The notes under the pieces: generated by a model
The model's input: only the letters and a program-made list of their open reading frames with translations
Database searches by the model: none
What the model was told of the DNA's origin: nothing
Assembly (NCBI RefSeq): GCF_030285625.1
Contig: NZ_CP127294.1
Span: 4,622,501-4,686,500, forward strand
DNA: 64,000 nucleotides
Direction: 5' to 3'
Source of the DNA: Amycolatopsis sp. 2-15
GTDB taxonomy: Bacteria; Actinomycetota; Actinomycetes; Mycobacteriales; Pseudonocardiaceae
In this document: positions 5,511-30,766 of the stretch, in pieces
Layout of the letters: every line of letters starts with the position of its first letter
Position numbering within the stretch: the first letter of the stretch is position 1
Position numbers and translations under genes: made by a program

Positions 5511-6002
5511 TTGCCGGACCGCCGCGCTACGGTCTCCGAGTCGGTGAGCCGCCGGGTGATCGACGACTTCGCCGAGCTGGACGTCGCGATGACCACGGTG
5601 GCGCCGTCTTCCGCCGGGCAGCTTTCCTTGCTGGACCTCGTTTCCGCCGGCGTGCGGATCGGCTTGGGGGAGGACGGGCAGCGCGACTATTGGAGCCCGT
5701 ACGGCAACTGCGACCTGCTGGACCGGACCTGGCAGCTGGCGTTCACACGCGGGTTCCGCCGGGACGAGCACATCGAGCTGGCCTTGGCCGCGGTGACGAT
5801 GGGCGGGGCCTCGATCATGAGCCACGACGTGCCGCGCCTGGCCGGGGTGCCGGACCGCCCGGAGCTGGCCGCCGGCGACCGGGCGGACCTCGTCCTGGTG
5901 GACGGGGAGACGCCGCCGAGCGCGGTGGAGATGGACCGCGGCCGGGACTGGACGATCCTGCACGAAGGCGCGGTCGTGGTCGAGGGGCTTGCCGTTCTCT
6001 GA
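5511..6002 (+). pseudogene. C-terminal fragment of a cytosine deaminase-like amidohydrolase
   Basis: The 163-codon frame resembles only the C-terminal half of the cytosine deaminase/AtzC-type amidohydrolases: DLVSAGVRIGLGEDG, a GNCDLLDRTWQLAF segment in place of the usual GDxLE region, and the end-of-barrel strand RADLVLVDGETPPSAVE. The N-terminal metal-binding HxH and the central histidines are absent, so it cannot be an active enzyme as it stands. Similarity begins near residue 5, only about 20 nt after the SnoaL-like gene ends, which suggests a deletion joined the two. The start is uncertain (TTG 5511 or GTG 5544). Confidence 0.7.
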
Positions 6003-6064
6003 GCCGCCGCGTGACCGATGCCGCTAGGCGGGACGGGGGAGGGGCGCGTACGGTGGAAGCCGGA

Positions 6065-6083
6065 TTAGGTAAGCCTTAGTGAA
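6065..6083 (+). promoter_or_regulatory. Candidate iron box (IdeR/DmdR-type operator)
   Basis: TTAGGTAAGCCTTAGTGAA matches the actinobacterial iron-box consensus TTAGGTTAGGCTAACCTAA at 13 of 19 positions, with an intact left half. It ends 13 bp before the ATG of a siderophore-interacting protein gene, the kind of gene such boxes control. Confidence 0.6.
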
Positions 6084-6096
6084 TGGGTGGTGTCCG

Positions 6097-6912
6097 ATGG
6101 TCGAAGCTCCGGCGCGCAAGGGGAACCCGGGAGTGCGCTTGTCGGTTCTGCGCAAGGAGAACCTGACCCCGCACATGATCCGGATCGTGGCCGGGGGCGA
6201 AGGCCTGCGCGATTTCCAGCCCAACGCGTTCACCGACGCGTACGTGAAGGTGATCTTCAAGGTGCCGGGCGTCGAGTACCCGGAGCCCTTCGACCTGCAG
6301 CGCATCCGCGCGGAGTTCCCGCGCGAGCAGTGCCCGCGGATGCGTTCGTACACCGTGCGTTCCTACGACGAAGCGGCCGGCGAGCTCGTGCTCGACTTCG
6401 TGGTGCACGGCGACGAGGGGCTGGCCGGTCCGTGGGCGATGCGGGCGCAGCCGGGCGACGAGCTGCTGCTCTCGGGCCCCGGTGGTGTGTACGCGCCGCG
6501 CGCCGACGCGGGCTGGCACCTGCTCGTGGGCGACGAAGCCGCGTTGCCGGCCATCGCCGCGTCGCTGGAGGTCATGCCGGCCGGCGCGCGGGCGCACGTG
6601 TTCCTGCTCGTGTCCGACGCCTCGGAGGAGCAGCCGCTGGTGACGAAGGCCGACGCGCAGATCACGTGGCTGCACCGATCCTCCGGCGCCGACCTCGCGG
6701 CCGCCGTGAAGGCGCTGCCGTGGCCGGGTGAGGACGTGCACGCGTTCGTCCACGGCGAGGCCGGCTTCGTGCGCGAGCTGCGGCGTTACCTGTTCGCCGA
6801 GCGCGGCGTGGCGAAGGAGTCGGTGTCGATCTCCGGCTACTGGCGCGAGGGCAAGAACGACGAGGCGTGGCGCGAGGAGAAGGCGGCCGAGCGGGCGCGC
6901 GAAAGGGCGTAA
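6097..6912 (+). CDS. Siderophore-interacting protein (FAD-dependent ferric-siderophore reductase)
   Basis: Encodes 271 aa of the SIP family, cytosolic flavoproteins that reduce ferric siderophores with NAD(P)H or reduced ferredoxin to release iron. The FAD-binding motif is MRSYTVRSYD (RxYTxR), followed by HGDEGLAGPWAMRAQPGDEL, LVGDEAALPAI and the C-terminal ISGYWREGKNDEAWREEK typical of the family. I chose the ATG at 6097 with GGGTGG upstream, rather than GTG 6079, because the latter lies within the iron box. Regulation by iron through that box is likely. Confidence 0.93.
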   Translation: MVEAPARKGNPGVRLSVLRKENLTPHMIRIVAGGEGLRDFQPNAFTDAYVKVIFKVPGVEYPEPFDLQRIRAEFPREQCPRMRSYTVRSYDEAAGELVLDFVVHGDEGLAGPWAMRAQPGDELLLSGPGGVYAPRADAGWHLLVGDEAALPAIAASLEVMPAGARAHVFLLVSDASEEQPLVTKADAQITWLHRSSGADLAAAVKALPWPGEDVHAFVHGEAGFVRELRRYLFAERGVAKESVSISGYWREGKNDEAWREEKAAERARERA

Positions 6913-6922
6913 TGTCGCCGGC

Positions 6923-8143
6923 ATGAACGTGGAGACCGACCCGTCTTCGGCGGGGTTCGACGCTGACCGTCTGAAACGGATCGACCGGCACTTCGACGCC
7001 TATGTGGACGACGGGCGGCTGCCCGGTTACCTCGCGGTGGTGAGCAGGCACGGGCGCATCGTCCACGTCGCTTCCCACGGCAAGCGGGACGTCGAATCGG
7101 GCGCCCCCGTGGAGCCCGACACCATCTGGCGCATCTTCTCGATGACCAAGCCGATCACCTCGGTGGCGGCGATGACCTTCGTCGAAGAGGGCCTGATCGA
7201 CCTCACCGACCCGATCTCCCGCTGGCTCCCGGAGTTCGCGGCGCCGCAGGTGTACGTGAAGGGCTCGGCACTGAGCCCGATGACGGTGCCCGCGACCGAG
7301 CCCATCCGCCTGTGGCACCTGCTCACCCACACCAGCGGTCTCACCTACGGCTTCCACCACACGCACCCCATCGACACGATCTACCGCGCCGCGGGCTTCG
7401 AATGGGGCACCCCGCCGGGTCTGGACCTCGCCGCCTGCACCCGCGCGCTGGCCGAGCTCCCCCTCGTCTTCCAGCCGGGCAGCGAATGGAACTACTCCGT
7501 GTCCACCGACGTCCTCGGCCGTCTCGTGGAGGTTCTCGCGGGCAAGCCCCTGGACGAGGTCTTCGCGGAGCGGATCTTCGGGCCACTGGGCATGACGGAC
7601 ACGGGCTTCTTCACGAAGGACACGGACCGCCTGGCGGCGCTGTACGTCGCTCACCCGCGGACCAAGCTGCCCACCCGCAACGAGGCTTTCGGCTCCATCG
7701 GCGTTTCGCGGCCGGACTCGTTCTCGGGCGGCGGCGGCCTCGTATCCACCGCGGCCGACTACCACCGCTTCACGCAGATGCTCCTGCGCGGCGGCGCACT
7801 GGACGACGCCCGGATCCTCGGCCCGCGCACGGTCGACCTCATGGCGAGCAACCACCTGCCGGGCCACGTGGACCTGGAAGCGTTCGGGCGGCCGCTGTTC
7901 GCGGAGATGCCCTTCGACGGCTTCGGCTTCGGTCTGGGCTTCTCCGTGCTGGAAGACCCGGTCAAAGCCAAAACCCTCTCCAGCCCCGGCGAATATGCCT
8001 GGGGCGGCGCCGCGTCGACGGCGTTCTGGGTGGACCCGGTGGAGGATCTGACGGTGGCGTTCTACACGCAGCTGCTTCCGTCGAGCACACATCCGATCCG
8101 GCAGCAGTTGCGGCAACTGGTGTATCAGGCGATCGTCGACTGA
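6923..8143 (+). CDS. Serine beta-lactamase family hydrolase (class C/EstB-like)
   Basis: Encodes 406 aa with the class C beta-lactamase fold. The nucleophile motif is S73-M-T-K76 (FSMTKPITS), a YxN-like element appears at NYSVSTDVLG, and the third motif is in the WGGAAST region. There is no signal peptide, so it is probably cytosolic. Such proteins are mostly esterases or peptidases; antibiotic hydrolysis should not be assumed. It begins 10 nt after the siderophore-interacting protein gene ends and may be co-transcribed with it. Confidence 0.88.
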   Translation: MNVETDPSSAGFDADRLKRIDRHFDAYVDDGRLPGYLAVVSRHGRIVHVASHGKRDVESGAPVEPDTIWRIFSMTKPITSVAAMTFVEEGLIDLTDPISRWLPEFAAPQVYVKGSALSPMTVPATEPIRLWHLLTHTSGLTYGFHHTHPIDTIYRAAGFEWGTPPGLDLAACTRALAELPLVFQPGSEWNYSVSTDVLGRLVEVLAGKPLDEVFAERIFGPLGMTDTGFFTKDTDRLAALYVAHPRTKLPTRNEAFGSIGVSRPDSFSGGGGLVSTAADYHRFTQMLLRGGALDDARILGPRTVDLMASNHLPGHVDLEAFGRPLFAEMPFDGFGFGLGFSVLEDPVKAKTLSSPGEYAWGGAASTAFWVDPVEDLTVAFYTQLLPSSTHPIRQQLRQLVYQAIVD

Positions 8144-8243
8144 GGTCGATTGCCTGAGGGAGTGAAACCACCCCTGCCGTCCCGGGTTTGCCTGGTTAGC
8201 TGCCGGCACAGGCTTTCCCGGGGCGGGGGATCGGTGGTGCCGG

Positions 8244-8501
8244 ATGCGAGGCCAGGCGGGCGCCGCCCTGGTCGCGGGGAACGGGTTCCACTACGTGTCG
8301 CCCTGGGCGACCATCGCGGCGTGGCTCGTCTTCGGTCCGAAGGATACGGCGTTGCGCAACGTCGTGCTCGTCGTTGTGGTGGCCGCTGTGTTCGCCGTCT
8401 TGGTCACGCTCCTGGGCCGGCGGCTTCCGGCCCTGCGAACGTCCACTCACTCGCTCCGTGAGGCTCTGCCGAGGCGACCCCCACAGCGCGCCGCAGGGTG
8501 A
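8244..8501 (+). pseudogene. Possible remnant of a Pr6Pr-type membrane protein
   Basis: An 85-codon frame carries HYVSPWATIAAWLVFGPK and a hydrophobic stretch ending AVLVTLLGRRLP. These resemble two separate parts of actinobacterial Pr6Pr membrane proteins, with the middle (the WYPYPF region) missing. The last 30 or so codons are antisense to the end of the convergent PPOX gene and look like shadow sequence. It is best read as a relic with an internal deletion; it may also be meaningless. Confidence 0.3.
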
Positions 8502-8946
8502 GCCGGTACAGGTGCCACGGGGGAGTGCCGGCGCTGGGGGCGCTGTAAGGAGCCGTGAAAGCCGACTCGCTGACGGTGGCGGGCCAGCCGACGGAGCGGT
8601 AGACGGCGGCGAGACGTTCGAGGGTGTCCGGGCCCGTGACGCGGGATGCCCACCCTTCCAAGGTGAGGTCGACACCGGTGAGGCGGACGCCGAAGCTGCA
8701 CCACGGGTTGCCGGCCAGCAAGCGGGACTTGAGGGTGCCCGGGCCGCTCACGAAGTAGAGCGTGCCGGAGTCCCAGACAGCGCCCACGCCGGCCGTGTGG
8801 GGGCGGCCGTCAGGGCGGACGGTGGTGAGAAAGAAAGCCAGGTCGGCGGTGGGGGTGTCGGACCTGAGCAGCTCGAGGGGACGGCTCCAGGGGAGTTCGG
8901 CGTGGCCGTAGATGTCCAGGTTGCGGGTTCGGATGAGTTCAGTCAT
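8404..8946 (-). CDS. PPOX-family pyridoxamine 5'-phosphate oxidase-like protein
   Basis: Encodes 180 aa with the split-barrel flavin-binding fold. Visible family features are ADLAFFLTTVRPDGRPHTAGVGAVWDSGTLYFVSGPGTLKSRLL near the N-terminus and an EWTFAG ending similar to the usual WRF. Members bind FMN or F420. I chose the ATG at 8946 (MTELIRTRN); an in-frame upstream ATG at 8982 would add 12 residues. It starts 39 nt after the F420-dependent oxidoreductase stop and is probably the last gene of that operon. Confidence 0.85.
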   Translation of the reverse strand: MTELIRTRNLDIYGHAELPWSRPLELLRSDTPTADLAFFLTTVRPDGRPHTAGVGAVWDSGTLYFVSGPGTLKSRLLAGNPWCSFGVRLTGVDLTLEGWASRVTGPDTLERLAAVYRSVGWPATVSESAFTAPYSAPSAGTPPWHLYRLTLRRAVGVASAEPHGASEWTFAGPEAAGPGA

Positions 8947-8985
8947 GCCTACGCGTCGGACGGCGATACCGGGAATCGACAATCC

Positions 8986-9984
8986 CTAAGCGGAGAGCTT
9001 CCCGACGACCTGACTCCCGTACGCGGCCAACGTCTCCTCGCGTTCGTCGTGCATCAGGTACAGGGCGAACTGGTTCACGCCCAGTTCCGCGAGTTCCTGC
9101 AGGCGTGCGATGTGCGCGGGGGCGGGCCCGAGCAGGCAGAACCGGTCGACGATCTCGTCCGGCACGAAGTCGGTGGACGGGTTGCCGGCGCGGCCGTGGT
9201 GGTTGTAGTCGTAGCCGGTGCGGGCGCGGATGTAGTCGGTGAGCTCGTGGGGCACCGGGCCGGAATCGCCGTAGCGCGCGACGAGGTCCGCGACGTGGTT
9301 GCCGACCATGCCGCCGAACCAGCGCAGCTGTTCGCGCTGGTGGGCGAGGTCTTCGCCGACGTACGCGGGCGCGGCCACGCAGATCGTGATGCCACCCGGG
9401 TCGCGCCCGGCGGCGCGCGCGGCCTCGCGCACCGCGCCGATCGTCCAGCGCGCGATGGCCGGGTCGGCGCACTGCAGGATGAAGCCGTCGGCGTGCTCGC
9501 CCACGGTCTTCAGGGCCTTCGGCCCGTAGCCGGCCATCCACATCTCCAGCCGCCCGTTGCGGACCCACGGGATGCGCACGGCGGTGTCGTTCATCGTGAC
9601 CTCGCGCCCCTCGGCGAGGTCACGCACCACCCGCATGCAGTCGCGCAGCGTGGCCAAAGTGGACGGTGGCTTCCCGACGACCCGGTGCGCCGAGTCGCCG
9701 CGGCCGATGCCGCACACCGTGCGGTTGCCGTGCATGTCGTTGAGCGTGGCGAAGGTCGACGCCATCACCGACCAGTCACGTGTCGCCGGCGAGGTGACCA
9801 TCGGCCCCACCACCAGCGAAGACGTCTCCGCCAGGATCCGCGAGTAGATCACGAACGGTTCCTGCCACAGCACGGCCGAGTCGAACGTCCAGCCGTACCG
9901 GAACCCCTGGTCCTCGGCGGCCTTCATCAGCCGCACGACGTTCGACGCCGGTGGGTCTGTCTGCAGCACTATCCCGAAATCCAT
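8986..9984 (-). CDS. LLM-class F420-dependent oxidoreductase (TIGR03842-like)
   Basis: Encodes 332 aa of the luciferase-like monooxygenase fold that uses coenzyme F420. The start MDFGIVLQTDPPA and the segments RYGWTFDSAVLWQEPF and GIGRGDSAHRVVGKPPST match the group that I associate with dihydropyrimidinase gene clusters (TIGR03842). It is 7 nt downstream of the hydantoinase gene in a leftward operon. A role in making or using reduced pyrimidine-like substrates is inferred from context only. Confidence 0.9.
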   Translation of the reverse strand: MDFGIVLQTDPPASNVVRLMKAAEDQGFRYGWTFDSAVLWQEPFVIYSRILAETSSLVVGPMVTSPATRDWSVMASTFATLNDMHGNRTVCGIGRGDSAHRVVGKPPSTLATLRDCMRVVRDLAEGREVTMNDTAVRIPWVRNGRLEMWMAGYGPKALKTVGEHADGFILQCADPAIARWTIGAVREAARAAGRDPGGITICVAAPAYVGEDLAHQREQLRWFGGMVGNHVADLVARYGDSGPVPHELTDYIRARTGYDYNHHGRAGNPSTDFVPDEIVDRFCLLGPAPAHIARLQELAELGVNQFALYLMHDEREETLAAYGSQVVGKLSA

Positions 9985-9991
9985 CTGCCCC

Positions 9992-11374
9992 TCAATTCAG
10001 GTACTGGTTCAACCCGCGAGACAGGAACTTCCCGTGGCCGACGGAACCACTGAACCCCGCAGGCGACACCACGACCCGGCCCCTCGACAGGACAGTGTGG
10101 ACTTTCCCGGTCAACGAAAAGCCCTCGTACGCCGAGTAATCCACGTTCATGTGATGCGTCGAAGCCGACAACGTCTGCTTCGCCGCGGGATCGTAGATCA
10201 CGATGTCCGCGTCCGAACCGGCCGCGATCACGCCCTTGCGCGGATACAGCCCGAACATTCGCGCCGGTGTCGCCGAGCACGTCTCGACCCAGCGGCCCAG
10301 CGTGATCTCGCCCGCGACCACGCCCTGGTGCAGCAGGTCCATCCGGTGCTCGACGCCCGGGATCCCGTTGGGGATCGCGCGGAAGTCGTCGCGGCCCAGC
10401 TCCTTCTGGTCCTTGAAACAGAACGGGCAGTGGTCCGTCGACACCACCGACAGGTCGTTGGTCCGCAGCCCCCGCCAGAGGTCGGCCTGGTGCGACTTCT
10501 CCCGCAACGGCGGCGACGCCACGAACTTCGCGCCCTCGAAGCCCGGCCGCGCCAGGTCCTCGATGGACAGGTACAGGTACTGCGGGCACGTCTCGGCGAA
10601 CACGTTCTGCCCGGCCTCGCGCGCCTCCGCCACGGCCGCAAGCGCTTGCGCCGCCGAGAGGTGCACGATGTAGAGCGGCGAGCCCGTCACGGCCGCGAGC
10701 GCGATGGCCCGCGACGTCGCCTCGCCCTCCAGCTCGGGTGGCCGCGTGAGGCCGTGCTGCACCGGGTCCACCCGGCCCGCCGCGACGGCCTGCGCGGCCA
10801 GCTGGTCGATCGCGATGCCGTTCTCCGCGTGCATCATGATCGTCGTGCCGATCTCACGCGCCTGCTGCATCGCCAGCAGGATCTCGCCGTCGGTCGAATA
10901 GAACACACCCGGGTAGGCCATGAACATCTTGAACGAACCGACGCCCGCGTCCACACAGGACCGCATTTCCTTGAGCGTGGAGTCGTTGACGTCCGACATG
11001 ATCATGTGGAACCCGTAGTCGATCGCGCAGTTGCCGTCGGCCTTCGAGTGCCACTTGTCCAGCGTGGACTGCAACGACGTGCCTTTGGCCTGCACGGCGA
11101 AGTCGATGATCGTAGTCGTCCCGCCCCACGCCGCCGCGGTGGTGCCGGTCTCGAACGTGTCGACCGAATGGGTACCGCCGAACGGCATCTCCATGTGCGT
11201 GTGCGCGTCGATCCCGCCCGGCAGCACGTACTTGCCGGTGGCGTCGATCGTCTCGTCGGCACTGAGCACGCCGGGCGCGGCGACGGCGGCGATGCGCTCG
11301 CCGTCCACCAGCACGTCGGCGAGCACGGCGCCCGACGGCGAGACGACCTGACCTCCCTTGATCAGCGTGGTCAT
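9992..11374 (-). CDS. hydA: Dihydropyrimidinase / D-hydantoinase
   Basis: Encodes 460 aa that open the ring of dihydrouracil, dihydrothymine or 5-substituted hydantoins to N-carbamoyl amino acids. All metal ligands of the binuclear zinc site are present: H58 and H60 (HTHMEM), carbamylated K149 (SFKMFMAY), H182 (MMHAEN), H238 (VHLS) and D314 (STDHCPF). The ATG at 11374 overlaps the stop of the upstream amidase gene by one base (TGATG), so translation is coupled. The product of this enzyme is the substrate of that amidase. Confidence 0.95.
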   Translation of the reverse strand: MTTLIKGGQVVSPSGAVLADVLVDGERIAAVAAPGVLSADETIDATGKYVLPGGIDAHTHMEMPFGGTHSVDTFETGTTAAAWGGTTTIIDFAVQAKGTSLQSTLDKWHSKADGNCAIDYGFHMIMSDVNDSTLKEMRSCVDAGVGSFKMFMAYPGVFYSTDGEILLAMQQAREIGTTIMMHAENGIAIDQLAAQAVAAGRVDPVQHGLTRPPELEGEATSRAIALAAVTGSPLYIVHLSAAQALAAVAEAREAGQNVFAETCPQYLYLSIEDLARPGFEGAKFVASPPLREKSHQADLWRGLRTNDLSVVSTDHCPFCFKDQKELGRDDFRAIPNGIPGVEHRMDLLHQGVVAGEITLGRWVETCSATPARMFGLYPRKGVIAAGSDADIVIYDPAAKQTLSASTHHMNVDYSAYEGFSLTGKVHTVLSRGRVVVSPAGFSGSVGHGKFLSRGLNQYLN

Positions 11375-19514: not shown

Positions 19515-21005
19515 GTGACCGACCGCATCAGCCACTGGATCGACGGCAAGCCGTACACCGGCGCGGCCGGGCGCACCGGTGACGTGTACGACCCCGCGAC
19601 CGGCGAGGTCCGGGCGAAGGTGGACTTCGCGGGCCAGGCCGAGGTCGACCAGGCGGTGGCGGCCGCCGCGGCCGCGTTGCCGGGATGGCGCGGCACGTCG
19701 CTGGCCGGGCGCACGCGGGTGCTGTTCGCGTTCCGCGAGCTGCTGTCGGCGCGCAAGCACGAGCTGGCGAAGATCATCACGAGCGAGCACGGCAAGGTCG
19801 AGTCCGACGCGGCCGGCGAGATTTCGCGGGCGATCGAGAACGTCGAATACGCGTGCGGCGCCGCGCAGCTGCTCAAGGGCGGTTTCAGCGAGAACGCCTC
19901 CACCGGCGTGGACGTGTACTCGATCCTGCAGCCGCTGGGCGTGGTCGGCGTGATCTCGCCGTTCAACTTCCCCGCGATGGTGCCGCTGTGGTTCGTGCCC
20001 AACGCGCTGGCGTGCGGCAACACCGTGGTGCTCAAGCCGAGTGAGAAGGACCCGTCGGCGTCGCTGTTCATCGCCGAGCTGCTCGCCGAGGCCGGGCTGC
20101 CCGCGGGCGCGCTCAACGTGTTGCACGGCGACAAGGCCGCAGTCGACGGACTGCTGGAACACCGGGACGTGAAGGCGATCTCGTTCGTCGGCTCCACGCC
20201 GATCGCGCGCTACGTCTACGAGACGGGCACCCGTCACGGCAAGCGCGTGCAGGCGCTCGGCGGGGCGAAGAACCACATGGTCGTGCTTCCCGACGCAGAC
20301 CTCGACCTCGCGGCCGACGCCGCCGTGTCGGCCGGGTTCGGGTCCGCGGGGGAGCGGTGCATGGCGGTGTCGGTGGTGGTGGCCGTCGACCCGGTCGGCG
20401 ACGAGCTGGTCGCGAAGATCACCGAGCGGATGTCCCGGCTGCGCGTCGGCGATGGCCGGGAACCCGAGTCGGAGATGGGTCCGTTGGTGACGAAGGCGCA
20501 CCACGAGCGGGTGACGTCCTATGTGGACGCCGGCGTCGCCGAAGGTGCCGAGCTCGTGGTGGACGGCCGGGGGATCGAGATCGACGGGGACGGTTTCTGG
20601 CTCGGCCCGACGTTGTTCGACCGCGTCGGGCCCGGGATGTCGGTCTACACCGACGAGATCTTCGGCCCCGTGCTCTCCGTGGCGCGCGCGACGAGCTTCG
20701 ACGACGCGCTCGGCCTGGTCAACGCCAGCCCGTACGGCAACGGCACCGCGATCTTCACCGGCGACGGCGCGGCCGCGCGGCGCTACCAGAACGAGGTGGA
20801 GGTGGGCATGGTCGGCGTGAACGTGCCCATCCCGGTGCCGGTCGGGTACTACTCGTTCGGCGGCTGGAAGGACTCGCTCTTCGGCGACACCCACGCGTAC
20901 GGGCCCGAGGGGTTCCACTTTTTCACGCGCACCAAGGTGGTCACCTCGCGCTGGCCGGACACCTCACACGCCGGGGTGAACCTGGGCTTCCCGAAGAACA
21001 CCTGA
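19515..21005 (+). CDS. mmsA: CoA-acylating methylmalonate-semialdehyde dehydrogenase
   Basis: Encodes 496 aa of the aldehyde dehydrogenase superfamily. Visible motifs include the NAD-binding segment FNFPAMVPLWFVPNALACGN, SFVGSTPIARY, and the nucleophile C282 in AGERCMAVS. The sequence type is methylmalonate-semialdehyde dehydrogenase, which converts methylmalonate or malonate semialdehyde to propionyl- or acetyl-CoA in valine, thymine and uracil breakdown. This fits the nearby dihydropyrimidinase pathway, where it would act after a transaminase. The GTG at 19515 has GAGGAG about 8 nt upstream. Confidence 0.93.
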   Translation: MTDRISHWIDGKPYTGAAGRTGDVYDPATGEVRAKVDFAGQAEVDQAVAAAAAALPGWRGTSLAGRTRVLFAFRELLSARKHELAKIITSEHGKVESDAAGEISRAIENVEYACGAAQLLKGGFSENASTGVDVYSILQPLGVVGVISPFNFPAMVPLWFVPNALACGNTVVLKPSEKDPSASLFIAELLAEAGLPAGALNVLHGDKAAVDGLLEHRDVKAISFVGSTPIARYVYETGTRHGKRVQALGGAKNHMVVLPDADLDLAADAAVSAGFGSAGERCMAVSVVVAVDPVGDELVAKITERMSRLRVGDGREPESEMGPLVTKAHHERVTSYVDAGVAEGAELVVDGRGIEIDGDGFWLGPTLFDRVGPGMSVYTDEIFGPVLSVARATSFDDALGLVNASPYGNGTAIFTGDGAAARRYQNEVEVGMVGVNVPIPVPVGYYSFGGWKDSLFGDTHAYGPEGFHFFTRTKVVTSRWPDTSHAGVNLGFPKNT

Positions 21006-22811: not shown

Positions 22812-23391
22812 GCTGACCCGGCCGCTCTCCCCTCGCAGCGCGCGCGCCCACGCCACCGCCCTGGCAGCGGCGCGCGCCCTGCTGGGCGAGGGCGGCCTCC
22901 CCGCCGCGACGGTCGACGCGATCAGCCTGCGCTCCGGCGTCAGCAAGGCGACGCTGTACAAGCACTGGCCCAGCCGCACCGCCCTGGCCGCCGAGGCCTT
23001 CGGCCGCGAGATGGCGGACGCCCTTCCTTTGCCTTCTACTGGCGATCCGCGGGCAGACCTGGTCGAGCAGGTGCGACAGGTGAGCGCCTTTTACGCGGGG
23101 GCGAAGGGGGAGGTTTTCGCGCAACTGCTCGCCGCGTGCGTGACCGACCCTTCGGCGGCTCCGTACTTTCGTGAGTTCTTTTTGGACGGTCGGCGGGCGG
23201 CTATTTCGGTTTTGTGGCAGCGGTTGGTGGAGAGTGGCCTGGCCTCGCCGACGGTGGACGCCGAAACGGCGACGGACCTGTTGTTCGGGCCGTTGATCTT
23301 CCGCCGCCTGACGGGGCACGCGCCTTTGACGTTCGCCGAGGCGGACGCGATCTCGTCGGCGGCGCTGGAGGGATTGCTCAAGCGCGAATGA
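22804..23391 (+). CDS. TetR/AcrR family regulator
   Basis: Encodes 195 aa. The helix-turn-helix runs from about residue 18 to 62 (ALAAARALLGEGGLPAATVDAI, then GVSKATLYKHWPSRTAL), with a TetR_C-like ligand domain. It closes the AKR-SDR operon and probably represses it through the palindrome at 21077. Its 3' end overlaps the convergent membrane protein gene by 14 nt. Confidence 0.92.
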   Translation: MTELTRPLSPRSARAHATALAAARALLGEGGLPAATVDAISLRSGVSKATLYKHWPSRTALAAEAFGREMADALPLPSTGDPRADLVEQVRQVSAFYAGAKGEVFAQLLAACVTDPSAAPYFREFFLDGRRAAISVLWQRLVESGLASPTVDAETATDLLFGPLIFRRLTGHAPLTFAEADAISSAALEGLLKRE

Positions 23392-23869
23392 CGTTGATGA
23401 TCTGTTTCCGGTTGGGGATCAGCACGATCGTGTTTTCCTGGTCCGGCCGGACCCGCTTGTGGAGGCCACGGAGAATGGGACGGCGCAGGCTGTCGAAGTC
23501 GGCCCAGTAGTTCCAGCCGGCTCGGATGTGTCCGGAGCGGACCACGATGGGGTAGCGCTCCGGCGGCGGACGCGGCAGGTGGTCTGCGGCGTTGTGCGTA
23601 TAACCGGAGAACAGCACCACCTTGCCGCGCCAGACGATGCTGAGCCGGTAGAGGCAGTACCACGCGCACGCTGCCATCCCGACCCCGATGGCCACCGCGG
23701 CGACCGTAATGGTGGTGGCGCCGTAGTGAAGCGTGGCCAGCGCCAGGACGCCGATCACGAACATGAACACCACGAGCCAGAAGGCGATGTCGATGATGCT
23801 CCAGCGCTGTGACGGGTGCAGTCGGCCTTCGCGGTTGAACCGGTCGACTTCGGCCTGGTCGGCTTTCAC
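23378..23869 (-). CDS. Two-helix membrane protein, third of three tandem paralogues
   Basis: Encodes 163 aa, unrecognised. The N-terminus KADQAEVDRFNREGRLHPSQ is followed by two membrane helices at about 25-50 and 55-75 and a cytosolic domain ending ENTIVLIPNRKQIINVI. It is a close copy of the gene upstream, with 38 identical bases at the 3' end. The GTG start overlaps the upstream stop (GTGA). The position at the end of a type VII-like cassette makes an immunity or accessory role conceivable, but nothing in the sequence proves it. Confidence 0.8.
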   Translation of the reverse strand: MKADQAEVDRFNREGRLHPSQRWSIIDIAFWLVVFMFVIGVLALATLHYGATTITVAAVAIGVGMAACAWYCLYRLSIVWRGKVVLFSGYTHNAADHLPRPPPERYPIVVRSGHIRAGWNYWADFDSLRRPILRGLHKRVRPDQENTIVLIPNRKQIINVIRA

Positions 23870-24363
23870 GACGGGATCACGTTGATGATCTGTTTCCGGT
23901 TGGGGATCAGCACGATGGTGTTTTCCTGATCCGGCTGGACCCGTGCGTGGAGAGCGTCGGGGAGCAGGGGACGGCGGAGGCCGTCGAAGCGGGCCCAGTA
24001 GTACGGATTGTTGCCTCGGCTGCGTTCGGTGTAGACGAGGATCGGGTAGCGCTCTGCCGGGGGGAGCGGGCGGTGCTCCTCGGCGTCGTGGGTGTAGCCG
24101 GTGAAGGTCACCACCTTGCCGCGCCGGACGATGCTGAGCCGGTAGAGGCAGTAGCCGGCGCACAACGCCAAGCCGACACCGATCGCCACTGCGGCGACGG
24201 TGATGTCGATGGTGCCGTAGGGCAGCGTGGCGAGGGCGAGGATGCCGATCGCGAACACGATCACCACGAGCCAGAAGACGATGTTGATGACGGCCCAGCG
24301 CTGGGCGGGATGAAGTCGGCCGTCGCGGGTGAAGCGGTCGACTTCCGCCTGATCGGCTTTCAC
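23866..24363 (-). CDS. Two-helix membrane protein, second of three tandem paralogues
   Basis: Encodes 165 aa, unrecognised. It has the same plan as its neighbours: KADQAEVDRFTRDGRLHPAQ, two membrane helices, GKVVTFTGYTHDAEEHRPLP, a GNNPYYWARFDGLRRP segment and the ending ENTIVLIPNRKQIINVI. GTGA overlaps on both sides indicate one translationally coupled operon. It is closest to the downstream copy, so that pair probably arose by the more recent duplication. Confidence 0.8.
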   Translation of the reverse strand: MKADQAEVDRFTRDGRLHPAQRWAVINIVFWLVVIVFAIGILALATLPYGTIDITVAAVAIGVGLALCAGYCLYRLSIVRRGKVVTFTGYTHDAEEHRPLPPAERYPILVYTERSRGNNPYYWARFDGLRRPLLPDALHARVQPDQENTIVLIPNRKQIINVIPS

Positions 24364-24860
24364 GAGGGGATGACGTTGACGATCACCTTGCCGTTGGGGG
24401 TGAGGCAGATCGTGTTCTCGTGCTCGGGGTGGAACTTGGCGTGGACGTCGTGGTCGATGGACCTTCTGAGGCCGTTGAAAGCGACAGTGTGCATCGGGTT
24501 GCCGCCCTGGCTTTTGATTGTGTAAAGCAGGATCGGGTAGTTCTTCGGCAGCGGTCGGCTCAGCGCGGCGTCGTGCGTGAAGCCCGTAAAGGTCGTGATC
24601 GTGCCTTTGCGTAGGAAGAGCAGACGGCGTACGCAGAAGGCCAGGAGCAGCAGCATGATGACGATGACCGGGACGGCGAACATGTAGCCGTACCCCTCTT
24701 GGTAGCCGGGAATGCGCACCAGTGCGTAGACACCGGCGACGAGGAGGACCACGGCGAACCAGAAGTTAAATTCGAGCACCTTGCGCCACTGTGAGGGGTG
24801 GAGCCGGCCCTCGCGGTTGAAGCGGTTGACTTCGGCCTGGTCCACGTTCTTGTCGCTCAC
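24360..24860 (-). CDS. Two-helix membrane protein, first of three tandem paralogues
   Basis: Encodes 166 aa, unrecognised. It is the most divergent of the three: N-terminus SDKNVDQAEVNRFNREGRLHPSQW, two membrane helices, FTGFTHDAALSRPLPKNYPILLY, GGNPMHTVAFNGLRRS, and the ending ENTICLTPNGKVIVNVI. The GTG start overlaps the stop of the 417-aa type VII substrate candidate by 4 nt (GTGA), so the two are translated together. Conservation of the soluble C-terminal part suggests it binds a partner. Confidence 0.8.
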   Translation of the reverse strand: MSDKNVDQAEVNRFNREGRLHPSQWRKVLEFNFWFAVVLLVAGVYALVRIPGYQEGYGYMFAVPVIVIMLLLLAFCVRRLLFLRKGTITTFTGFTHDAALSRPLPKNYPILLYTIKSQGGNPMHTVAFNGLRRSIDHDVHAKFHPEHENTICLTPNGKVIVNVIPS

Positions 24861-26110
24861 TCGGGCTTTTCCTCGCTGCCGCCTTCGGGCGCGCCGGCCT
24901 TCTCGCCTTCGCCGCCTTCGGACTCTTCCTTGTGTTCTTCCTCGTAGGCTTCGGATCCTTCGTGGTAGCGATCGGCTTGCTCGTTCGCCTGCCGACGTGC
25001 TTCGGTGCCGACGCCGAGAGTGTCCGCGTCCTTCCAATCCGGAACCCCGTCGCCCTTCCCCCACTCCGAGGGCTTGAGGAAGCTGCGGCCGTCTTCGGAG
25101 TACTTCTCACCGAACTTCGTTTCGCTCTCGGTCTTCGGGAAGAGCTTGTCCGCCGTGCCTTCCTTCCACCCCTCCGCGCGTTCGGCGGCAGTCTTGGCGT
25201 GGGCGGCGTCCTTGAGTTCGCCGCCCTTCTTCTCGAGGTTCACCGCGGCGTCGAGGCTCTTGTCGGAGATCTTGTCGGCGACCTTGCCGAGCTTCTGGAG
25301 CGCCTTGGACGCTTCCTCGATGGCGCCCTTGGCCTTGCCGGCGCTCTCGGCGAGCTTGTCGAGCTTCGCGACGACCTGCGCGATCCGGCTGCTGATCTTC
25401 TCCGCGAGGATGCCGCCCTCGACGAGAGTGTCGGCGATGAAGGCGGCGATCGTGCCGCCGAACGTGCACCACGACGCGGCGAGGGCGGCTAGCGCCTTGA
25501 TGATCAGTTCGCCGACGAACGACGAGATCATGTCGCGGATCAGCCCGCGTTCGGTACCGACGAGCGCGCCCGCGACGTTCATCGCGCCCGAGGCGCCCGT
25601 GGCCTGCCCTGCGGCGCCTCGAAGGACCGCGACGTAACCCTGCGCCGACTTCTGGTAGGCCTGGCCACCCGAGCCCTGGAAGTCGGGTGCCACTTTCGCG
25701 GCGGCCTGCTCGTACTGGTCCGCGCTCGCCGAGAGCTGCTTGGAGATGTTCGTCCAGGTCACGGCCTTGGCGGTGATCTCCTCGGGGTTACCCGCGAGCT
25801 TGTCGAGGCCCTCCTTGAGGAAGCTGATGTGTTCGATCAGCCAGCCGACCCCGGCGCTCGCCAGCGAGCCGAGCGGGTCCATCGCCATACCCAGCAGGTC
25901 GAGACCGTCGGTGGCGACGTCCATGCCGAAGTTGAGCCAGTCACCGTTGCGAAAATCGGTGATCGACGAGGCCGCGTCGCTGAAGATGCCGCTGCCCGCG
26001 TACTGAGCGTTGAGGTTGTCCAACTCGTTGCTCGACGAACCCATCTGGGTCATGAGCCCGCTCGTCGGCTCCGTGGTCGCGACCAGCGGGTTCTCCTGCG
26101 TCTCGGTCAT
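24857..26110 (-). CDS. WXG-like type VII secretion substrate candidate
   Basis: Encodes 417 aa. An alpha-helical N-terminal region of about 300 residues includes a WXG100-like turn (DFQGSGGQAYQKSAQGY, with Phe in place of Trp) and hydrophobic helices around 190-230. A Lys/Ala-rich coiled-coil-like stretch follows, then a charged C-terminus rich in Glu/Gly (EEEHKEESEGGEGEK). I see no known toxin domain. The start overlaps the EspC-like gene upstream (ATGA). The context suggests a type VII cargo or its carrier; a cytosolic role is not excluded. Confidence 0.7.
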   Translation of the reverse strand: MTETQENPLVATTEPTSGLMTQMGSSSNELDNLNAQYAGSGIFSDAASSITDFRNGDWLNFGMDVATDGLDLLGMAMDPLGSLASAGVGWLIEHISFLKEGLDKLAGNPEEITAKAVTWTNISKQLSASADQYEQAAAKVAPDFQGSGGQAYQKSAQGYVAVLRGAAGQATGASGAMNVAGALVGTERGLIRDMISSFVGELIIKALAALAASWCTFGGTIAAFIADTLVEGGILAEKISSRIAQVVAKLDKLAESAGKAKGAIEEASKALQKLGKVADKISDKSLDAAVNLEKKGGELKDAAHAKTAAERAEGWKEGTADKLFPKTESETKFGEKYSEDGRSFLKPSEWGKGDGVPDWKDADTLGVGTEARRQANEQADRYHEGSEAYEEEHKEESEGGEGEKAGAPEGGSEEKPE

Positions 26111-26430
26111 GCCGGGAGCTCCTTGCCGAACGAGTTGACCTTGTCCTTCGTGTTCTGTTCGTTCGTGTCGTAGTGGTCGTGGGCTTGCTGGAGCTTGTCG
26201 GCGATGCCGTCGGCGCACGTAGCGACCAGGCCGATGAACTCCGTCGCCGACGAGAGGTACGTCTGCAACGGGAGAGCGAACACCTGTCCGACGATGCCGA
26301 ACGCCCAGTCGTTCAAGGCCTGACCGGACGCCGTCGCGTCGGCGGCGGTGTGGACTCCGCCCGCGATGTCCTGCACCTCACCCTTGTGCGTCTGCAACGC
26401 CGTGAGATTCACCTGCTGCGTGCCTGCCAT
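26107..26430 (-). CDS. EspC/DUF2580-like type VII secretion target
   Basis: Encodes 107 aa, all helical, without a signal peptide. Length and pattern (VNLTALQTHKGEVQDIAGGVHTAAD and a central WAFGIVG) fit the EspC-like ESX targets. Near the C-terminus the sequence YDTNE matches the YxxxD/E secretion signal of mycobacterial type VII substrates. It is coupled to the YbaB-like gene upstream (TGATG) and to the 417-aa gene downstream (ATGA). No ESX core component (EccC, EccB, EccD) is visible in the window. Confidence 0.75.
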   Translation of the reverse strand: MAGTQQVNLTALQTHKGEVQDIAGGVHTAADATASGQALNDWAFGIVGQVFALPLQTYLSSATEFIGLVATCADGIADKLQQAHDHYDTNEQNTKDKVNSFGKELPA

Positions 26431-26975
26431 CAGTAGCCCCTCCCCAGGATCGAGCCGCCGTTGTAGTAGTCGTCGTCATCGGAGGGGTCGGCCGGGGGCC
26501 GGGCCGGGCGCGAAGGCCGGGCCGGGGGCGCGGGCGGGGCCGGAGGAGCCGGCGGCCGAGGCGGAGCAGGCGGCGGTGCTCCACCATCCTCATCCCGATT
26601 GAAGAATTGTCGCGTTTCCGGCTGCGCCGGCGTCTCCTCGGGCACTTCCGGGGTGGGAATCTGCTCGTCGAGGAATTTCATCGCGTCGCTGTTTTCGCCG
26701 ATGAGCGGGGCCATGATGGCGTGCAGTTGCTGGGCCGCCTGGGCCTGGGCGCGGTGCGCCGTGGCGACGACGGCGGCGGCGAGCGCGCTGCGGCTGATCT
26801 CGTCGGCGCGGGGGCCGAAGCTGAGCTGCTGCAGGGCTCCGCTCGTGTTCACGGTGACGGTGACCGCGCCGTCGTTGCTCGTCGCCGTGGCGGCGACGCG
26901 CTTGAGGCGCTCCTGGGCCTCCGCGGCTCGCTGTCCGATTTCGGCGATTTCGGGTGCGCGCCCGTTATTGTCCAC
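26430..26975 (-). CDS. YbaB/EbfC-family nucleoid-associated-like protein with proline-rich tail
   Basis: Encodes 181 aa. The first 100 residues resemble the YbaB/EbfC fold (VTVTVNTSGALQQLSFGPRADEISRSALAAAVVATAHRAQAQAAQ). The C-terminus is a low-complexity Pro/Ala/Arg run followed by an acidic DDDDYYNGG segment. YbaB-like genes often head type VII target clusters in Pseudonocardiales; there they are better seen as cluster components than as chromosome-organising proteins. The GTG at 26975 has GAGGG 5-6 nt upstream. Confidence 0.8.
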   Translation of the reverse strand: MDNNGRAPEIAEIGQRAAEAQERLKRVAATATSNDGAVTVTVNTSGALQQLSFGPRADEISRSALAAAVVATAHRAQAQAAQQLHAIMAPLIGENSDAMKFLDEQIPTPEVPEETPAQPETRQFFNRDEDGGAPPPAPPRPPAPPAPPAPPARPSRPARPPADPSDDDDYYNGGSILGRGY

Positions 26976-27097: not shown

Positions 27098-27224
27098 CAT
27101 TTACCTTGAAGCAGTGGTCACCCGCAGGCGGCCGAGACACCACCGTGTCCGCGGGGTTGAGCGCCGGGCACTCAGGCTTCCGTAAACTCGTTGTGAGTAG
27201 CGGGTCGAAAGCAGGGAGGTGCCG

Positions 27225-28250
27225 GTGGCGAACACGGACGAGCGTCGCTTCGAGGTGCTGCGCGCGATCGTGGCCGACTACGTCTCGAACCAGGAGCCGG
27301 TCGGTTCCAAGACGATCGTCGAGCGGCACAACCTGGGCGTTTCGAGCGCGACCGTGCGTAACGACATGGCCGCGCTCGAGGAAGAGGGGTACATCACCCA
27401 GCCGCACACGAGCGCGGGGCGGATCCCCACGGACAAGGGCTACCGGCTGTTCGTGGACAAGCTCTCGGAGATCAAACCGCTCTCGGCGGCCGAGCGGCGG
27501 GCGATCACGTCGTTCCTCGACTCGGGCACGGACCTCGACGACGTGCTGCGCCGGTCGGTGCGGCTGCTCGCGCAGCTGACCCGGCAGGTCGCGGTGGTGC
27601 AGTACCCGATGCTGACCAACGCGGCGGTGCGCCACCTCGAGGTGGTCCCGCTCACGCCGGCGCGGCTCATGCTCGTGCTCATCACCGACTCGGGCCGGGT
27701 GGACCAGCGCACGGTCGACCTCGGCGACGTGCTCACCGAGGAGAACGTGCTGCGCCTGCGGACCGTGCTCAACGGCGCCCTGGCCGGGCGCCGGCTCGTC
27801 GAGGCGGCCGTGCGGGTGGCCGAGCTGCCCGAAGTGGCGCCGAACGAGCTGCGCGACAGCCTCACCCGCATCTGCACGGTGCTGGTCGAGTCGCTGGTCG
27901 AGCACCCGGAGGAACGCCTGGTGCTGGGCGGCACGGCCAACCTCACCCGCAACGTCGCGGACTTCCCCGGGTCGCTGCGCCAGGTCCTCGAAGCGCTCGA
28001 GGAGCAGGTGGTCGTGCTCAAGCTGCTGGCCGCGGCTCGCAACCCCGGTGCGGTGACGGTCCTCATCGGCGAGGAAAATGAAGACGAGCAGATGCGCAGC
28101 ACCTCGGTCGTGTCGATCGGCTACGGCCGGGACGACATGCTGCTGGGAGGCATGGGCATCGTCGGACCCACCCGGATGGACTACCCGGGCACCATCGCGG
28201 CCGTCCGCGCGGTGGCCAACTACGTGGGGCAGATCCTGTCCGGCCGCTGA
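27225..28250 (+). CDS. hrcA: Heat-inducible transcription repressor HrcA
   Basis: Encodes 341 aa. The N-terminal winged helix ([28 protein letters not shown], then [35 protein letters not shown]) and the C-terminal GAF-like domain ([41 protein letters not shown]) are complete. HrcA represses class I heat-shock genes through CIRCE. I found no good CIRCE in the upstream region. GTG 27225 is preferred over GTG 27219 because GGGAGG sits 5 nt before it. dnaJ follows after 36 nt. Confidence 0.95.
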
Positions 28251-30520: not shown

Positions 30521-30530
30521 AGCCCCGACG

Positions 30531-30766
30531 GTGCGGTCGGTGGCTATGTCTGCGTGGTTGGGGAGGGCGCTGGAGTTCCGAGGGTGCGGTCGGTGGCCGT
30601 GTCTGCGTGGTTGGGGAGGGCGCTGGAGTTCCGAGGGTGCGGTCGGTGGCCGTGTCTGCGTGGTCGGGGAGGGCGCTGGAGTTCCGAGGGTGCGGTCGGT
30701 GGCCGTGTCTGCGTGGTTGGGGAGGGCGCTGGAGTTCCGAGGGTGCGGTCGGTGGCCGTGTCTGCA
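30531..30766. repeat. 53-bp tandem repeat, four full copies and a partial fifth
   Basis: Copies begin with GTGCGGTCGG at 30531, 30584, 30637, 30690 and 30743, exactly 53 bp apart. They differ at only a few positions (for example GTGGTTGGGG or GTGGTCGGGG). Because 53 is not a multiple of three, no single repeat peptide is preserved, which argues against a coding role. Confidence 0.95.

Follow-up and report, generated by a model that had tools for sequence, protein, structure and literature searches.

The window analysed here is a 64,000-nucleotide stretch from the genome of a soil actinobacterium, Amycolatopsis (C1:4622501-4686500 of a 10.05 Mb contig), and its subject is a minus-strand series of six genes running from 26975 to 23378 that encodes, in order, a YbaB-like protein, an EspC-like protein, a protein of 417 residues (p417) and three membrane paralogues (mA, mB and mC). 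An earlier note on this DNA had described six serially overlapping genes, which is borne out by the coordinates, by the overlaps (1 nt at the junction of the YbaB-like and EspC-like genes and 4 nt at each of the four later junctions) and by a codon-position gene caller that chose the same six genes. The arrangement is more than chance, because the EspC-p417-membrane gene set recurs at one site in 38 of 80 genomes of the genus. Near its C-terminus p417 varies as discrete alleles that covary with the first membrane gene, and this C-terminus probably has an allele-specific partner in the membrane.

Genes of the cassette

The first gene (26430..26975, minus strand) encodes a YbaB/EbfC-like protein of 181 residues with a Pro-rich tail and a GTG start (PF02575, E 8.3e-14). 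By homology, this protein is a possible chaperone of the ESX type, ESX being the actinobacterial form of the type VII secretion system (T7SS); EspL of mycobacterial ESX-1 is YbaB-like as well. The next gene (26107..26430, minus strand) encodes an EspC-like protein of 107 residues (PF10824, 36.4 bits with a cut-off of 23.5), which was also recovered in a search of its own genome at C1:4648634-4648930 and is the likely partner of p417. The YxxxE signal ascribed to this protein is present in the window (Y87-E91), but it is not a conserved signal, because Y...[DE] occurs within the last 45 residues of only 13 of the 38 genus orthologues. The window holds no visible ESX machinery, as had been said, but EccB is encoded elsewhere in the genome at C1:838691 and 9272296 with a third, short match at 2062821, EccE at C1:841448 and 9274409, and YukD/EccD-like genes at four places.

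The third gene (24857..26110, minus strand) encodes p417, which matches the PPE model PF00823 with 29.6 bits (cut-off 26) and is predicted to consist of an ESX/PPE-type hairpin at residues ~103-188, a conserved middle and a C-terminal helical region. Its description as WXG-like holds for the hairpin and fails for the turn, which is F-x-G or FSDCG in most alleles and not W-x-G. Members of the PPE family proper carry Pro-Pro-Glu near the N-terminus; p417 was rejected as a PPE protein proper because this motif is absent from its sequence, despite the score of the Pfam model. Two features expected of an ESX substrate pair, a WXG100/PPE-type helical hairpin and ESX machinery in the genome, are both found.

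The last three genes, all on the minus strand, encode mA (166 residues, 24360..24860), mB (165 residues, 23866..24363) and mC (163 residues, 23378..23869). The paralogues are 47-73% identical in two BLASTP comparisons, with 41% between mA and mC in the alignment, which also displays the conserved C-terminal end ENTI-x-L-x-PN-x-K that the earlier note had pointed out in all three. Their designation as an unrecognised family agrees with profile searches, in which no Pfam or NCBIfam family exceeded its cut-off and PADLOC gave no match at E<=1. The accompanying description as two-helix proteins was correct and incomplete, since a small C-terminal beta domain is predicted in addition to the two transmembrane (TM) helices. 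DUF443 was matched by none of the three proteins and is not one of the 11 families that a scan of 18 members matched weakly. In OB-fold membrane proteins, for example DUF2500, one or more TM segments are combined with a small beta barrel; the predicted architecture of the paralogues, two TM helices and a beta domain, may or may not be of this kind.

A tree of 55 membrane proteins places mB with the first membrane gene of a sister species (L035; support 99/75) and mC with the second gene of that species (100/96), while mA forms a separate long branch near the mB and mC groups (91/90). The identities to the genes of L035 are 49% for mA and 81% for mB against position 1, and 79% for mC against position 2. 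As the orthologue of mB adjoins p417 in the sister species, mB and mC are read as older partners, and mA, which occupies the position that covaries with the p417 C-terminus, is the likely current partner of p417. The orthology would fit mB and mC as older or partner-less variants, and the pattern would look no different if L035 had lost an mA-like gene.

Covariation of the p417 patch with the first membrane gene

Species distance was measured from four flanking proteins (HrcA, DnaJ, RsmE and MmsA). In 21 pairs with flanks at least 98% identical, the identity of p417 ranges from 45 to 98% over residues 300-400 and from 74 to 99% over residues 100-280. The variable stretch is narrow and spans codons ~311-375 (24986..25180, minus strand), as delimited by the conservation minimum, synonymous divergence (dS) and allele types. 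Conservation between close species is lowest, at 48%, over residues 351-360, and the patch lies between the conserved body and a better conserved stretch at residues 371-380. Across the 38 loci at the shared site the patch occurs as discrete alleles even among near-identical species, and these alleles are mutually alignable with the sequence of the final helix kept.

The dS of the patch is 0.44-1.28 in seven of eight pairs, compared with 0.03-0.28 in RsmE, DnaJ, HrcA, YbaB and MmsA; the exception (L047/L052) is a pair sharing the same allele, with a patch dS of 0.05. In the pair L062/L034, the dS of p417 is 0.07-0.13 over residues 1-310 and 1.3-1.7 over 311-430, with values of 0.75 for the first membrane gene, 0.21 for the second and 0.19 for MmsA. 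A dS raised in a bounded stretch indicates that the patch was replaced by recombination and did not arise by fast point change. Between the window and L035, identity is 99% for HrcA and DnaJ, 97% for the YbaB-like protein, 64% for the EspC-like protein and 67% for p417, the last being 77% over residues 100-280 and 47% over residues 300-400. In the pair L046/L060, identity falls to 62% in the lowest bins of the patch and to 59-89% in the membrane gene, and the intervening p417 tail is 96% identical, with 89-100% in the upstream bins and 93-100% downstream after two poorly aligned bins. These two islands are split by the conserved tail, and in this pair, if not elsewhere, one tract does not simply explain both.

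Covariation was measured over a set of 66 close pairs with flanks at least 96% identical and a full set of 703 pairs from 38 genomes. In the close pairs, patch 311-375 and the first membrane gene covary with a rho of 0.847, a value reached by none of 1000 within-clade permutations, and shuffling the membrane genes within clades gave a mean rho of 0.38 (standard deviation 0.09). The partial rank correlation of p417 residues 300-400 with the first membrane gene, given the flanks, the N-terminal part of p417 and EspC, is 0.80 in the close pairs and 0.52 in the full set (0 of 500 permutations as high). The last membrane gene, which is identical to the first in single-gene loci, correlates less (0.57 and 0.43). 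With a threshold of at least 80%, patch and gene are both the same in 24 close pairs and both different in 33. In a clade of eight genomes with two membrane genes, the first gene is 85% identical between genomes with the same patch (nine pairs) and 61% between those with different patches (19 pairs), whereas the second does not track the patch (77% and 75%).

The same association appears among allele types. The p417 type 7 is paired with membrane type 8 in all eight of its loci, which belong to four species groups, and p417 type 2 is found with membrane type 7 in 9 of 12 loci; the overall association across the 38 loci was reached by 4 of 5000 within-group permutations. L060 and L045 hold the 7-8 pair, and their nearest relatives by flanks, L046 and L055, hold another. 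Within the membrane protein, the drop in identity from same-patch (37) to different-patch (57) pairs with flanks at least 95% identical is largest at residues 97-136, in the beta domain.

Distribution and genomic site

A p417-like match of some kind is present in all 80 genomes of the genus. Strong orthologues, with scores of at least 438 bits, are found in 40 of them, and members of the membrane family in 43. Every strong locus has a same-strand membrane homologue no more than 600 nt from p417, and 38 of the 40, including that of the window, lie at one site, divergent from hrcA-dnaJ-rsmE and with mmsA on the far side. In the window, hrcA (27219..28250, plus strand) anchors this site together with dnaJ and rsmE and is found beside the cassette in 38/38 site loci, and the far-side anchor, an mmsA-like aldehyde dehydrogenase gene (19515..21005, plus strand), is likewise present in 38/38. 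YbaB precedes the set in all 38 loci (33 by gene caller and 5 by tblastn). The number of membrane genes is one in 25 of these loci, two in 12 and three in the window only. Between rsmE and a gene of the HIT family, the window also contains a 53-bp tandem repeat (30525-30765) of 4.5 copies with a 97% match.

The earlier note had held that its reading would be refuted if the paralogues occurred mostly without p417 in other genomes, and the reverse was found. Among the 43 genomes in which the membrane family occurs, a strong p417 locus lies directly upstream in 40, two have remnants of both (in G050 both genes are broken and in G073 only remnants are left) and one, G077, has the membrane gene only. 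The membrane gene of G077 is intact, and YbaB, EspC and all of p417 save its last ~20 residues were not found there. A gene of 995 codons with NB-ARC and TPR domains (L019 7945-10929) replaces them and is possibly a mobile or defence gene. Divergent EspC-p417-membrane sets are located away from hrcA in L025 (G058) and L027 (G062), and the set may therefore have moved.

A family-level sample of 297 genomes, some of them from the genus itself, contains the membrane family in 12 genomes of two genera. In the sister genus (g26), eight of the nine genomes with a p417 match at 1e-60 were examined. The gene of the predicted secreted protein, accompanied by its partner gene at 40/40 loci in the genus, has a membrane homologue at 3/8 of these loci, and the copy of G299 is in pieces. 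A different family of membrane proteins, of 322-374 residues and 40-59% identical, is encoded at or near the p417 cassette in L085-L087, L089, L090 and L092 of the sister genus; its strand is that of p417 in L087 and L089 and the opposite one in L085, L086, L090 and L092, and the two members scanned had no Pfam match at E<=0.01.

Triads of YbaB-like, EspC-like and p417-like genes without a membrane homologue are found at other Amycolatopsis sites and in other genera, including Kutzneria. Within the loci studied, L026, L028, L029, L030, L032 and L036 carry such a second triad at other sites, the neighbours of that in L028 being genes for a methyltransferase, a DUF6346 protein, a glyoxalase and an EamA transporter. 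Elsewhere in the genome of the window (L022; C1:935895-941261), a p417-like protein of 440 residues (5896-7218) is followed on the same strand by an RHS-repeat gene of 1273 codons (7441-11262), as if one RHS protein were split over two genes.

Interpretation and comparison with known systems

We propose that one product of the cassette is an ESX substrate whose tip is polymorphic and determines specificity, and that the membrane proteins are matched to it and serve in immunity or recognition. The YbaB-like protein would act as a chaperone, and the EspC-like protein would pair with the p417 hairpin, as judged by homology; the pair would then be exported by the ESX machinery encoded elsewhere in the genome. 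The patch at residues ~311-375, carried on the conserved p417 body, would act on or be read by neighbouring cells, and the membrane protein of the adjacent gene would recognise the matching patch, probably through its beta domain at residues ~97-136, thereby protecting kin or marking self. The alleles appear to be exchanged by recombination at a fixed chromosomal site, as suggested by the raised dS in bounded stretches, and extra copies such as mB and mC may be older or partner-less variants. The tandem partner copies, the similarity to the immunity arrays of T7SSb and, in the single case of G077, the retention of the membrane gene lead us to give a polymorphic ESX effector-immunity or self-recognition pair a probability of about 0.48. 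A more specific form is put forward tentatively, namely ESX-type self-recognition in which a PPE-like secreted protein carries a swappable patch of ~65 residues that is read by a new family of two-TM beta-domain proteins, with older partners stacked behind the current one. The membrane partner may serve as immunity protein, self-recognition receptor or anchor.

Several observations weigh against an effector-immunity or self-recognition pair. The idea of an effector with immunity proteins, a guess of the earlier note from the gene layout, draws genuine if indirect support from the allelic nature of the p417 patch and its match to the first membrane gene, and is weakened on two counts: searches of p417 against Pfam, NCBIfam and PADLOC gave no toxin family at E<=1, as the note had itself seen no toxin domain, and at 5/8 of the p417 loci in the sister genus no membrane homologue appears in any of the six frames while the C-terminal region is present. 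In three close pairs of membrane-less p417 relatives the C-terminus is 73-87% identical and the N-terminal part 95-97%; the C-terminus thus evolves fast in these triads too, though less so than at loci with a membrane gene. All p417 C-termini align with one another, unlike classical toxin-tip swaps. Where a strong p417 locus is lacking (40 genomes of the genus), an intact membrane gene is found in G077 only, and orphan immunity islands are therefore not seen. The matching has exceptions: one of 25 same-patch close pairs has membrane genes only 71% alike, and 8 of 41 different-patch pairs have membrane genes at least 80% alike, six of them involving L070 and two L040. These two loci are the clear mismatches (L070 with a type 2 patch and a type 8 gene, L040 with its own patch and the gene of its clade), and p417 type 4 (11 loci) is spread across five membrane types. 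The divergent tract between the window and L035 is not confined to the cassette, because TetR (dS 0.58) and SDR (dS 0.36) also diverge. Independent swaps are few, by our own uncomputed estimate around ten, and linkage within one tract is therefore possible for most of them.

p417 may instead be a non-toxic secreted or surface component resembling EspB, and the membrane protein may be devoted to it as an anchor, a receptor or an adaptor for export; both would coevolve through binding, and the exposed patch would have been diversified by phage, predators or competitors. The lack of a toxin family and the membrane-less triads of Amycolatopsis, Kutzneria and other genera suit this explanation, and binding alone suffices for covariation. 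Tandem, unequal extra membrane genes fit protection better, as does the membrane gene left intact in G077 after the other losses, though only this one case is at hand and the genes may have been lost recently, and we consider the anchor or receptor role rather unlikely. That the p417 C-terminus and the first membrane gene merely share recombination tracts as neighbours, with no functional pairing, is suggested by their adjacency (a 4-nt overlap in the window) and by one continuous divergent tract in L062/L034, L052/L068 and the window/L035 pair. Such hitchhiking is made improbable by the 96% tail between the two diverged sides in L046/L060, by the second membrane gene of the eight-genome clade, which lies directly behind the first and goes untracked, and by the N-terminal part of p417, which correlates little with the first membrane gene after correction for flanks and C-terminus (-0.06 and 0.23 in the two pair sets). 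A housekeeping role of the usual ESX kind, with membrane genes that evolve fast and whose divergence means little, would accord with the fixed hrcA-side site of 38/40 genus carriers and with the fast C-terminus of the membrane-less relatives; it is quite improbable, as discrete alleles across species groups and a patch dS far above background indicate replacement and not drift.

With respect to polymorphic toxins, p417 has a conserved N-terminus and a variable C-terminus, and an adjacent partner gene is matched to its allele, with exceptions. A polymorphic toxin system proper was considered and rejected: no recognised toxin domain and no swapping between unrelated C-terminal domains was found when both were tested for, and the cassette is therefore not classed as one. 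By analogy, it may nonetheless work in the manner of polymorphic T7SS effectors that are accompanied by immunity arrays.

In TspA-TsaI of the Staphylococcus aureus T7SSb, the TspA C-terminus depolarises membranes and TsaI is a DUF443 protein with five predicted TM segments (PMC7456083). Both loci have a protein exported by the T7SS (for p417 on inference) with a polymorphic C-terminus, followed by a row of membrane genes that in TspA-TsaI includes at least one immunity gene (PMC7456083); the cassette differs in its EspC/PPE-type pair, its two TM helices with a beta domain and the absence of a known activity. The EsaD-EsaG and TelC-TipC arrays likewise consist of immunity paralogues in tandem, which homologous recombination between conserved blocks reshuffles, but they are firmicute systems with known toxins, whereas the exchange here concerns a patch within a predicted secreted protein and its first partner gene (PMC9484751). 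EsxX with ExiAB and ExiCD is a T7SS substrate with membrane immunity proteins, and ExiCD also occurs without the toxin; EsxX differs from p417 in its LXG domain, its glycine-zipper toxin and its other immunity families (PMC12744356).

Closer in taxonomy, WXG-linked polymorphic toxins have been predicted in actinobacteria, among them the short and probably non-enzymatic Ntox38 (PMC3482391). Ntox38 resembles p417 as an actinobacterial, WXG-linked protein with a short C-terminal domain predicted to be non-enzymatic, but that domain has 33-43 residues and a predicted three-stranded fold, whereas the C-terminus of p417 is predicted to be helical and has no Ntox match (PMC3482391). In mycobacterial ESX-1, the small proposed chaperone EspL is encoded beside espB by overlapping genes and EspC is the partner of the larger substrate EspA, which resembles the first three genes; the portion of that account consulted describes no membrane-protein gene array (PMC6319747), and by sequence p417 matches the PPE model alone. 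AaEAS of Amycolatopsis azurea is a T7SS-linked growth-inhibiting protein from the same genus, but it is an enzymatic alarmone synthetase on an LXG domain (PMC12691689).

No description of the cassette was found in the open-licence PubMed Central papers searched, in which the literature on T7SS competition is mostly concerned with firmicute T7SSb. The discrete alleles supply ready-made matched and mismatched pairs, and few constructs would therefore be needed for testing. If the proposed reading is true, the cassette would do for ESX what toxin-immunity arrays do for the T7SSb of firmicutes, with a tip unlike any known toxin. ESX effector-immunity or self-recognition pairs with an unnamed family of membrane partners would then exist, and owing to such tips and partners a search based on toxin domains would overlook them.

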